Position numbers and translations under genes: made by a program
In this document: piece after piece, positions 54,859 to 61,143 of the stretch
Layout of the letters: every line of letters begins with the position of its first letter
Numbering within the stretch: the first letter of the stretch is position 1
The notes under the pieces: model-generated
Databases searched by the model: none
What the model saw: the letters and a program-made list of their open reading frames with translations, nothing else
Told to the model about the DNA's origin: nothing
NCBI GenBank assembly: GCA_015232855.1
Contig: JADFYW010000006.1
Span: 17,610 to 81,609 of the forward strand
Source: Fibrobacteria bacterium
GTDB taxonomy: Bacteria; Fibrobacterota; Fibrobacteria; UBA11236; JADFYW01
Direction of reading: 5' to 3'
Length of the DNA: 64,000 bases

Positions 54859-55704
54859 ATGCCTGACACCCAACCAATAGCAAAAATAACCAAAGCCTCT
54901 TTTTCGTATCCGGCCGGGAATAACGCAGTAGTCGACATCAATATGTCCCTGTTTGAGTCTGAAATTGTTGGACTAATTGGACCAAATGGATGCGGGAAGA
55001 CCACACTTTTTAAATTGATTTCAGGATATATGCCTGTAAGCAGTGGAACTATTGAGCTCGGTGGCACTCTGATTGAAGACTATAATGAGCGTATGCTCAG
55101 TGAATTTGTAACGATGGTTGAACAAAATCCTGAGAATCAACTCGCTGGTCCCACAGTTGAAGACGAGCTTGCCCGAAGCAGCCGTTTAATGGGTCTCAAA
55201 GGAAGGGCCATTGAAGAGAACGTCACCAGAGTATTGCGAGATGTAAATTTGGCAGATGCTCGTGAATGGTTCATTGATGAGATTTCAACAGGAGAGCGCA
55301 GAAGAGTTGCTCTAGGGCTTTCACTACTTGGATTACCAAAATTATTGCTCCTTGATGAGCCTTTTTCTGATTTAGATGAAGAGGGTATTTCAGCCACAGT
55401 AGATTTTTTAAATAAATACAAAGAAAAAAATGTAAGTATCCTGATAAGCAGCCATAAACTTGATGATTTATTAAAAATTTGTGACCGCATCGCCATACTT
55501 GAAAATAACACCATTGGTTATATTCATGAACCTGAACAGGTTATAAGAAACAAAGAACTCTTACAAAAAACGTCCTTGAAAATCCCTGATATTCCTGCAT
55601 TATTTTTAGAATTAGAAGCCGCTAATATTCTTTCTTTTGAAAAATGTCCGGTTGATTTGACTCAAGCAAAGTCTCTTATTAATAAAGTAATGAAAAGGAA
55701 ATGA
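54859..55704 (+). CDS. Orphan ABC transporter ATP-binding protein (CbiO/ECF-like)
   Basis: Walker A 'GPNGCGKTT', non-standard signature 'ISTGERRRVALG', Walker B 'LLLLDEPFSDLDE'; no permease adjacent. Confidence 0.87.
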   Translation: MPDTQPIAKITKASFSYPAGNNAVVDINMSLFESEIVGLIGPNGCGKTTLFKLISGYMPVSSGTIELGGTLIEDYNERMLSEFVTMVEQNPENQLAGPTVEDELARSSRLMGLKGRAIEENVTRVLRDVNLADAREWFIDEISTGERRRVALGLSLLGLPKLLLLDEPFSDLDEEGISATVDFLNKYKEKNVSILISSHKLDDLLKICDRIAILENNTIGYIHEPEQVIRNKELLQKTSLKIPDIPALFLELEAANILSFEKCPVDLTQAKSLINKVMKRK

Positions 55705-55781: not shown

Positions 55782-57473
55782 ATGTCATTTCCCAGTATTC
55801 CTCCCGAACATTTGCCCCCAGACTCTTCTTTTGTAAAGATTCTTGGTGTTACTTACCTCTGGGTAAAACTGCCTAATGGTGACGATTTTTATCTCACCCA
55901 ATATGGTCATCCCTTTTTCAAGCACCTGGTTCCCGATAAATGGTATAACGACTTTGAAAACAAATGGGAGAAACAGGAGGGCAGTGGGACCGTTTATAAA
56001 ATTAAAATCAAAGAAGAGGACGGCTGCCCCATTGATATTGTCCTGAAATATTCTCGGGTTGGACAGGACGTGCCAGGACTTGACGTTGATAACTTATCTG
56101 ACTTCGGTACCGCTGAATTTAACAGCCCTTTTGAAGAATTTTCTCTTGTCATGGAAATGCGAAATACGCGTTATGAATCGGCAGGCACCATTTATACCCA
56201 TAAACCTCTTGGTATATATATACCAGCAGAAAGAGTACATTCTGACAAACTCGGTAGAAAAGAGTACAAGTTTGAGAAGAAATCACGTATGCAGGAGATA
56301 GATCTTGACCTAAACCGGCGTTATCTGGTGATGTATGAATGGGTAAAGGGGATTGACGCTGTTGAAGCCGCCAAACGCATCAATATGAGTGATGAAGAGC
56401 TTACCCATCTCATGCTAATGGTAGATAAAGACCTCCATCACAAAGGTTTTCGTGACCTGGACCGAAAACCTCGTCATATTATTGTCCGCCTGAATAAAGA
56501 CGGAAATTTTATTAAAAATAAAAATGGTGACATGCTCTATGCTTACATTGACTTTGAAATGCTCCAACGAACACCCGATAGGGAACAGCGGCTAAAAGCC
56601 TTCAGACGAAGCGACTACCTGAAACGACAGCGGGATCGATTTAACACATACATTAACCATGACATTCCACCTAATTTAAAAATGGTGAATATTTTTGGGC
56701 TCGACTACATTTACGGCAAAGTACAAAGTACTGGTGGCTCTCTGTGGGTGCTTGGACGCGACCCGGTTTTATTTGATTATTTCCTTCCGGAACGCTGGCG
56801 AAAAACACCCCGTAAAAAACTCAGTCATTCATATCCCGTTTACTACACACTTACCAAAGACAACATCCATATTGTATGGCGGGTTTCCCGGCTTGGCGAC
56901 AAACCGGATCTCTATGGGTTTGATGGCAAAGGCAAACAGATATTAGGTTATGGGTACAATAGCCCTTTTGAAGAATTCGCTATAGCGCATACCTTAAATG
57001 CTCAAAACATACATACTATTTACCCACGCGCTATATATATGACCGGTCAACAAACGTTAGCCATGGATTACATGGCCGATAACCGACGCTATGAATCCCA
57101 TAAACATATTCTTATGCCAGACGGTACTTTTGTGCTACAAAAAGAACGTAATTACATCACACTTTGGGGGCATTGGAACGGGCCAGACGAACTCCTTGCA
57201 GTGCGGGACGGTGAGTTTTATAGTGGCATTAATCTCGCCCTTGCCAGACGCAGCGGCGTTATATCTCCCAAAATGTCAAAGACTCTCTTAGAAAAGCAAA
57301 TGAACCGGCTTAAACAAGCAGGTATTACTGATCTTAATTTTCAACCTCACCATTATCTTATTTCTCTTAATAGCAAAGGAGAACTGGTATTGGATAGCGA
57401 TGGGTTGCCTGAATTGCGAATATCAAACATGGAACTCTTATGTAAAGAAGGAGATGAAACATGGAATGTATAA
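55782..57473 (+). CDS. Uncharacterised protein with internally duplicated kinase-like domain
   Basis: 563 aa; two halves align (SRVGQ/SRLGD, FNSPFEEF/YNSPFEEF, TIYTHKPLGIYI/TIYPRAIYMTG, GFRDLDRKPRHIIVRLN..YIDFEML / GITDLNFQPHHYLISLN..RISNMELL); first half has HxD-like and DFx-like motifs. Confidence 0.72.
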   Translation: MSFPSIPPEHLPPDSSFVKILGVTYLWVKLPNGDDFYLTQYGHPFFKHLVPDKWYNDFENKWEKQEGSGTVYKIKIKEEDGCPIDIVLKYSRVGQDVPGLDVDNLSDFGTAEFNSPFEEFSLVMEMRNTRYESAGTIYTHKPLGIYIPAERVHSDKLGRKEYKFEKKSRMQEIDLDLNRRYLVMYEWVKGIDAVEAAKRINMSDEELTHLMLMVDKDLHHKGFRDLDRKPRHIIVRLNKDGNFIKNKNGDMLYAYIDFEMLQRTPDREQRLKAFRRSDYLKRQRDRFNTYINHDIPPNLKMVNIFGLDYIYGKVQSTGGSLWVLGRDPVLFDYFLPERWRKTPRKKLSHSYPVYYTLTKDNIHIVWRVSRLGDKPDLYGFDGKGKQILGYGYNSPFEEFAIAHTLNAQNIHTIYPRAIYMTGQQTLAMDYMADNRRYESHKHILMPDGTFVLQKERNYITLWGHWNGPDELLAVRDGEFYSGINLALARRSGVISPKMSKTLLEKQMNRLKQAGITDLNFQPHHYLISLNSKGELVLDSDGLPELRISNMELLCKEGDETWNV

Positions 57474-57664
57474 AAGACAAAAACATAACTAGCTGTAATT
57501 GTAGTTCCGGTTCCTGCAGCAGAAAAGGAAAGTGCTGTGAATGTCTTTCTTATCATCTCAGGAAGCGTGAAGCTCCTGCCTGTTTTTTTCCGGATAACGC
57601 TGAAAGAACCTATGATCGCTCTTTTGCTCATTTTGCAAAACTGGTAACCAGTGGCAAAGTTTAG
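57461..57664 (+). CDS. Small Cys-rich protein, DUF6485-like
   Basis: 67 aa; 'CNCSSGSCSRKGKCCECLSYHLRKREAPACFFPDNAERTYDRSFAHF' pattern; start overlaps the end of the preceding gene. Confidence 0.8.
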   Translation: MECIKDKNITSCNCSSGSCSRKGKCCECLSYHLRKREAPACFFPDNAERTYDRSFAHFAKLVTSGKV

Positions 57665-58977: not shown

Positions 58978-61143
58978 CTAACTAATGGATGGCGCAATAA
59001 TAAGCGCAACAACACTCATCAGTTTCAAAAGGATATTCAAAGAAGGACCTGAAGTATCTTTGAAAGGATCACCTACGGTGTCCCCTACAACAGCTGCATG
59101 ATGAGCTTCTGAGCCTTTCCCAAATTTCTGGCCATCAATCTCAATCCCGCCTTCAATAACCTTCTTAGCATTATCCCAGGCACCACCTGCATTGGACTGG
59201 AAGATAGCCATGAGTACGCCGGTGACGGTAACACCAGCCAGCAATCCACCAAGAGCTTCGGCTCCCAGAAAAGGGGTGTAACCAACTGCCACAGGAACGG
59301 CAATAGCTAAAAGTCCTGGTAAAACCATTTCTTTAAGAGAAGATTTGGTGGAGATGTCCACACACTTCCCATATTCTGCCTTACCTTCTGCTGCATCAAA
59401 AATCTTTTTATCCTCTGGTGTAGCATTATCCATATCAGAATCATATTTCCGCATAACAGAAAGAGCAGCTTTAAGTTCAGGAATGTCGGCGAACTGGCGC
59501 CGTACTTCCTTAATCATAGCCATAGCTGCTTTTCCAACCGCATTCATTGCAAGGGCGGAAAAAACAAAGGGAAGCATACCGCCAACAAAAACGCCAGCCA
59601 TAGTGGTGGGGTTGGCAAGATTAATCATGGTGAGACCTGCCTGCTGCATGAAAGCAGCAAAAAGAGCCAGAGCAGTAAGTGCCGCAGAAGCGATAGCAAA
59701 GCCTTTACCAATTGCGGCGGTTGTGTTACCAACAGCGTCCAGCTTATCGGTACGTTCCCGTACTTCTTTGGGTAAGTCAGCCATTTCTGCAATACCACCA
59801 GCGTTATCAGAGATAGGACCATAGGCATCCACTGCCAGCTGAATACCGGTATTGGCCAACATACCAACTGCAGCAATTGCTATTCCATAAAGACCGGCTA
59901 ATTTAAATGAACTCATAATGGCAACGGAAATAATCAGAATAGGAATACCTGTTGACATCATGCCAACACCGAGACCAGCAATAACATTGGTACCCGGACC
60001 GGTAAGAGACTGTTTCACAATAGACAATACCGGGGCTTTATCAGTTGCTGTATAATACTCTGTGATTTTACCAACGGCAAGGCCTGCTAAAAGTCCAACG
60101 ATTGTGGCCCAGAATACATTTAACGCTGAATATTCTTTACCGGCCATTGACCAGGTTTCAGGTAATATATTGGTGATGAGAAAATAGGATGCGACCAACA
60201 TGATGCCTGCTGAGAGAAATTCACCGGTATTTAATGCGGTTTGAGGATTCCCTCCCTCTTTTACTTTAACAAAAAATGTTCCGATGATGGAACAAACGAT
60301 TCCGGCAGATGCAAGCATCATGGGAAGGAGTACTGCGGACAGACCACTAAAGTTGTCTGAAAAGCCGGTGGCTCCTATAAAAGCACTACCGAGAACCATT
60401 GATGCGAGAATACATCCCACAAAAGACTCAAAAAGGTCTGCACCCATTCCGGCCACATCACCCACATTATCACCGACATTGTCTGCAATAGTCGCAGGGT
60501 TTAAGGGATGATCCTCAGGAATGCCGGCTTCTACCTTACCGACCAAATCTGCTCCTACATCAGCAGCTTTGGTGTAGATACCACCACCAACTCTTGCGAA
60601 AAGAGCAATGGAAGAAGCACCCAGAGAAAAACCAGAAAGTACATTGAGTACTTTATTCATGTCCCACTCTGCACCAAGTACTTGTGAATAAAGACAAAAA
60701 AGCCCGCTTAAGCCTAATACACCTAAGCCAACTACTCCAAGGCCCATTACAGAACCCCCAGCAAATGCTACCGAAAGAGCTTTGCCTAAAGAATGCTGAG
60801 CAGCGTGGGTGGTACGTACATTGGTTTTAACCGCAACTCGCATACCTAAGAAACCGGCAAGACCTGAACAAACAGCGCCCGTTACAAAAGAAAGTGCAAT
60901 AAGCGCACTGGATTCTTTTTCTGCCATACCCTTAAATGCCAGTAAAACAGCAATAGCCACAACAAAAACACTGAGAATTTTATATTCTGCTTTGAGGAAC
61001 GCCATAGCTCCTTCTGCAATGTGGGTACCGATAGCTTTCATTTTATCAGTACCAGCTTCTTGTTTGGAGACCCATCCGGTCTTCCAAAAGGTAAATAGCA
61101 GGGCTATTATACCAAAAACAGGTAAAACATATACAATTTTCAT
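58978..61143 (-). CDS. hppA: Membrane-bound ion-translocating pyrophosphatase
   Basis: '[55 protein letters not shown]', '[24 protein letters not shown]', '[29 protein letters not shown]'. Confidence 0.96.

Follow-up and report, generated by a model that had tools for sequence, protein, structure and literature searches.

Proteins in which a kinase is fused to a pseudokinase are best known from eukaryotes, such as the JAKs and the tandem kinases of plants. In the JAK family and in the wheat tandem kinases (Yr15, PMC6170490), a catalytic domain is joined to a homologous, inactive one, and both are full canonical kinase domains. The protein-kinase-like (PKL) superfamily, to which such domains are compared here, is defined by ten key residues, all but one of which are dispensable in some family (Kannan et al. 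2007, PMC1821047). Our literature search for bacterial tandem kinase-pseudokinases returned, among the papers searched, only plant proteins and unrelated work, and neither 'tandem' nor Fibrobacter nor PEPCK occurs in a review of pseudokinase families in bacteria published in 2025 (PMC12599244). Here we describe a bacterial protein that shares the arrangement of the JAKs and the wheat kinases, although it has no sequence relation to them beyond the fold.

The protein is encoded in a 64,000-nucleotide stretch of the genome of a Fibrobacteria bacterium, referred to below as the window (Table 1). It probably represents a new family within the known PKL superfamily, marked by an unusually small domain, a His substitution at the metal site and a conserved, putative pseudokinase duplicate. 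No named family could be assigned to it, as the initial annotation had already concluded, since Pfam, NCBIfam, PADLOC and PHROGs all lacked a fitting model. A match of one homologue to PD-T4-6 (PADLOC, E 0.017) was too weak to use, and viral contigs contained no relatives of the tandem protein.

Table 1. Features of the tandem gene and its surroundings, in window coordinates; residue numbers are those of the tandem protein, PKA-type equivalents in brackets.
Feature	Position	Strand	Basis
Upstream neighbour at 77 bp, an ABC ATPase of ECF/CbiO type (context of this locus only)	54859..55704	+	PF00005 4e-27; ECF_ATPase models below cut-off
Tandem kinase-pseudokinase gene, 563 aa	55782..57473	+	Intact ORF; same-length homologues in three phylum groups
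Half 1 (aa 15-292 with its C-terminal linker helix), a minimal kinase domain, putatively active	55824..56657	+	Invariant catalytic residues; AF2 pLDDT 82, pTM 0.82; Foldseek PDB matches listed all kinase-like
Glycine-rich loop, G67 (G52)	55980..55991	+	G67 invariant 19/19
K89, equivalent of ATP-binding Lys (K72)	56046..56048	+	Invariant 19/19
E118-E119, helix-C Glu (E91), in FNSPxEEF	56133..56138	+	Invariant 19/19; helix 116-127 in AF2 model
Catalytic loop D227-x-K229-P-x-H232 (D166, K168; N171 replaced by His)	56460..56477	+	D, K and H invariant, P 18/19; in register with DLKPDN of Rad53
D257-[FY]-E259, DFG-position motif	56550..56558	+	D and E invariant 19/19
Half 2, putative pseudokinase domain, aa 293-563	56658..57470	+	Homologous to half 1; catalytic Asp and Lys positions variable
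N549-x-E551, DFG position, Asp replaced by Asn	57426..57434	+	N and E invariant 19/19
67-aa Cys-rich protein of the DUF6485 family	57461..57664	+	PF20095 44.4 bits (cut-off 24); adjacency not conserved

The internal duplication that had been proposed for this ORF was borne out. The two halves can be aligned over ~240 residues with 23% identity (BLASTP, E=8e-14), and their local alignment score of 148 lies far above that of 1000 shuffles (mean 34.8, SD 5.4, maximum 64). Profiles built from 19 members for each half confirmed the homology when compared by HHalign (99.4%, E=4.9e-21). Among the shared blocks listed in the initial annotation, V-x-I-x-G-x-x-Y, S-R-x-G, NSPFEEF and the terminal block are genuine. 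The T-I-Y block is not, as the TIY of half 1 (136-138) is out of register with that of half 2 in the alignment, where the homologous block is instead I-x-T-x-x-P-x-x-I-Y.

Residue conservation was read from 19 aligned homologous sequences. Of the six catalytic residues of the PKL set, five never vary in half 1, namely those corresponding to G52, K72, E91, D166 and D184 of PKA, and these include the Lys, the catalytic-loop Asp and the DFG-position Asp that had been singled out as kinase-like. The HRDxxxxN-like loop described in the initial annotation is present as well, but its Asp is D227 and not D225, a position occupied by Val in 14 of the 19 sequences. The sixth position, that of the metal-binding Asn (N171), is His in every sequence, a replacement that the initial annotation did not contain. 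The loop carries an invariant Lys in a D-x-K-P context, the canonical catalytic-loop Lys of Ser/Thr enzymes and a signature of Ser/Thr protein kinases. The His and Arg of HRD are not retained in the 19 half-1 sequences, and the H158, H164, D220 network is likewise absent from them, positions 219 and 225 being variable and the domain stopping before helix F.

Beyond D-[FY]-E, half 1, half 2 and a single-domain form of the protein extend for only ~10–35 residues, and none of the three has an activation segment, an APE motif or helices F–I. With the repeat stopping so soon after this motif, half 1 is not a canonical Ser/Thr kinase. The single-domain form, found in one genome (G183; L050:6713-7630, 305 aa), has all half-1 motifs and ends directly after VDFELL, and this stop at the same point supports it as a true domain boundary.

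The initial annotation had suggested a kinase-like fold, and structure searches agreed with it at a distance. The half-1 model (AF2, 16 half sequences) gave 43 PDB matches listed by Foldseek at E<=0.001, all of them kinases or kinase-like, including WaaP, PknB, Rio2, YabT, BubR1 and FIKK13 with probabilities of about 1.00; nearly all of its named matches in BFVD were kinases too. The best PDB match, WaaP, had an E-value of 4e-5 and a TMt of 0.46, the rmsd values being 6 Å and more, and because TM-scores fall below 0.5 the likeness to kinases is to be regarded as remote. The model of the whole protein (8 sequences; pTM 0.78, pLDDT 72) gave TM-scores <0.4 with large rmsd, perhaps because the tandem was aligned as one unit; the half-1 model did better. 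The family profile, searched against the PDB, matched Rad53, ULK2, titin-type kinases and the bacterial kinase 4eqm, with the hinge and catalytic loop of Rad53 in register; these matches (E ~1e-3, with designed helical repeat proteins scoring higher through a helix) carry weight solely through this agreement in the register of the motifs.

Half 1 can thus be set beside several known kinases. WaaP (LPS core heptose kinase, PDB 6dfl) resembles it in the short C-terminal part of its kinase fold, a fold that half 1 probably shares, but WaaP is a single-domain protein, identity is 11% and there is no sequence match to the WaaP family; no LPS genes were noticed beside the homologues examined. Hanks-type Ser/Thr kinases (PknB, YabT, PrkC), which both Foldseek and the profile matches reached, share D-x-K-P, the Gly of the G-loop, the Lys, the helix-C Glu and the DFG-position Asp with half 1. 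They differ in possessing the segments that in half 1 are missing after D-[FY]-E, in having Asn where half 1 has the metal-site His and in having the Gly of DFG where it has Glu, and Pfam Pkinase (PF00069) matched none of the 19 family members. The atypical kinases Rio2 and ABC1/UbiB were also found by Foldseek and have a reduced C-lobe, as half 1 does. However, no match reached family thresholds (five family members gave sub-threshold ABC1 matches, E 0.017 at best) and the KxGQ motif of UbiB was not seen in the family by eye. To our knowledge, no pseudokinase tandem occurs among Rio2 and ABC1/UbiB kinases.

Half 2 had been called degenerate, with its motif positions eroded, which is true of the motifs and not of the domain. 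Across the 19 sequences the positions of the catalytic Asp (D166) and catalytic Lys are variable, and the DFG Asp has given way to Asn. The ATP-Lys position (367: K, R, T, G or E) is only partly lost, Lys being retained in 13 of 19, and W366 beside it is invariant. E397, N549 and E551 are kept, the changes at N549 and W366 are fixed, and mean column identity is 61% in half 2 against 59% in half 1. With conservation equal to that of half 1, half 2 appears to be selected for something other than ordinary catalysis. We infer that this half arose by an ancient duplication and has been retained as a putative pseudokinase, and the whole can very likely be described as a PKL protein whose second copy is dead. 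With invariant motifs in half 1, motif loss in half 2 and kinase matches in the structure searches, the kinase-pseudokinase architecture first proposed proved largely right.

Full-length homologues, 36–54% identical over their whole length, are present in at least 20 genomes from three phylum groups. Carriers make up 14 of 168 genomes in the phylum of the window (the window genome included, as well as one fragment cut off where its contig stops), 3 of 16 in a second group whose records are labelled Elusimicrobia (one with the single-domain form) and 4 of 45 in a third (one cut by a contig end), and there are two further carrier bins (L022, L023). The family is patchily distributed, as no homologue was seen in those relatives of the window genome that belong to its own order and class. 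In a tree of all halves, the half-1 and half-2 groups lie on opposite sides of a branch with 100/100 support, which places a single duplication before the spread of the family; the stand-alone domain of G183 clusters with half 1, on a long branch. One genome has two adjacent full-length tandem copies, 73% identical (L024:5150-8742, G016:C32), with a PfkB sugar kinase 1 bp beyond.

A possible link with central metabolism is visible in the loci of relatives, and was therefore out of sight when the window alone was read. GTP-dependent PEP carboxykinase (PEPCK) adjoins the homologue in G037, in divergent orientation, and in G167 and G023, on the same strand. Phosphofructokinase (PFK) adjoins it in G040 (divergent) and in G205, where it is on the same strand and is followed by pyruvate kinase; in G016 and G017 a gene for a PfkB sugar kinase lies 1–3 bp downstream. 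A single gene order passed on by descent does not explain these loci, which differ in orientation and come from two phylum groups. By a rough count over 22 genomes, 5 immediate PFK or PEPCK neighbours were seen against 0.046 expected, and PEPCK alone gave p=5.5e-7 (about 0.003 after a rough correction for 5000 families), in a category chosen post hoc, after the data had been seen. Fifteen of 22 carriers, the window genome among them, have no glycolytic gene as immediate neighbour.

Some further observations concern these enzymes themselves. The PFK of G040 is closest to PPi-dependent PFKs. In Fibrobacterota, GTP-PEPCK occurs in a canonical type and in a divergent type (profile E about 1e-89 to 1e-105; loci in G000:C125, G037, G040, G023:C162, G015, G020, G034, G035 and G038), and it is the divergent type that adjoins the kinase gene in G037 and G023. 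This type is commoner in carriers of the kinase gene (4 of 14) than in other genomes (5 of 154; Fisher p=0.003, kinship ignored). In G183, the single-domain kinase gene overlaps a DUF4914 gene (PF16260, L050:4770-6716), whose P-loop GASGGGKSE and V-x-DDMA motif align with PEPCK (HHalign 41%, E 3e-4). A comparison of DUF4914 with the PDB gave no match; judging from these motifs, it may be a PEPCK/HprK-like P-loop enzyme.

The reading that we favour, and hold on balance to be probable, is that of an atypical kinase-pseudokinase that regulates the branch between glycolysis and gluconeogenesis, its activity and target being inferred. Half 1 would be an atypical minimal PKL kinase domain that probably binds ATP, and the transfer of phosphate by this half is likely. 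D227 and K229 would act in the catalytic loop and D257 would bind metal, with the invariant His at the second metal-binding site, that of the Asn. Half 2 plausibly provides docking or allosteric control, because half 1 is without the C-terminal helical part that normally holds the substrate and the activation segment. As homologues often lie beside genes for committed steps of sugar breakdown or synthesis, the protein may control such steps, the irreversible reactions of PFK and PEPCK being the likely ones, and the simplest modes would be phosphorylating such an enzyme or answering a metabolite. That its role concerns glycolysis and gluconeogenesis is plausible, although we propose it tentatively; that PEPCK or PFK itself is the target seems unlikely. 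We give equally little credence to the most specific version, in which a kinase core cut right after the DFG position and with a His-based metal site phosphorylates PEPCK or PFK and so switches between glycolysis and gluconeogenesis.

Half 1 could instead be a small-molecule kinase acting on a sugar, lipid or sugar-phosphate, with half 2 as its structural partner and the glycolytic neighbours reflecting a shared pathway. A best PDB match to a heptose kinase, a domain without activation segment and APE helix, and the PfkB genes directly downstream in G016 and G017 would all fit, whereas the D-x-K-P Lys is a feature of protein kinases and the profile matches were protein kinases, not APH or choline kinases. 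Glu in place of the DFG Gly is a choline-kinase-type change, but choline kinases have Arg at the K72 position (PMC1821047), where K89 is invariant. We consider this explanation rather unlikely, if credible. Alternatively, both halves could be pseudokinases, forming an ATP- or metabolite-binding scaffold that regulates partners without phosphotransfer, or the protein could be a SelO-like AMPylator. The His at the metal-binding Asn position in every member and the loss of the HRD His and Arg and of the H158 position speak for it; G67, K89, E118/119, D227, K229 and D257 are nevertheless all invariant, and half 2 provides, within one and the same protein, an example of catalytic sites that have been relaxed, which makes it an improbable account.

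The small ORF downstream, taken as DUF6485-like in the initial annotation, is a true DUF6485 protein that starts inside the 3' end of the kinase gene, overlapping it by 13 nt, with AGGAG 7 nt before its ATG. A two-gene module in which this Cys-rich protein serves as substrate or as metal or redox sensor would agree with the overlap, the good ribosome-binding site and the curated status of the family, but is very improbable, since just 1 of the 13 genomes that contain both genes has them side by side, and DUF6485 gave no match in 10 of 23 carriers. In the 12 other genomes they lie on different contigs, and we therefore rejected the partnership as a conserved feature, the adjacency being unique to the window genome. 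Small Cys-rich proteins near two homologues, a CxxCxxCC protein (PF03692, L031:10278-10676) and a DUF5320-like one (by eye, L020:3341-3706), are perhaps there by chance. Two genes beyond DUF6485, the window contains an ORF that by eye resembles a membrane-bound proton-pumping pyrophosphatase (58978-61143, minus strand).

A bacterial family with one ancient duplication offers a simple case for asking what a pseudokinase does for its partner, and the half-1 domain tests how little of the kinase fold suffices for catalysis. If the link of this kinase-pseudokinase with PEPCK and PFK is real, the family would point to an unrecognised switch that directs central carbon flow in Fibrobacterota and in other phyla, most of them uncultured. 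Should phosphorylation of PEPCK or PFK hold true, the protein would be the bacterial equivalent of kinases dedicated to metabolic enzymes, and would carry its pseudokinase regulator within itself.
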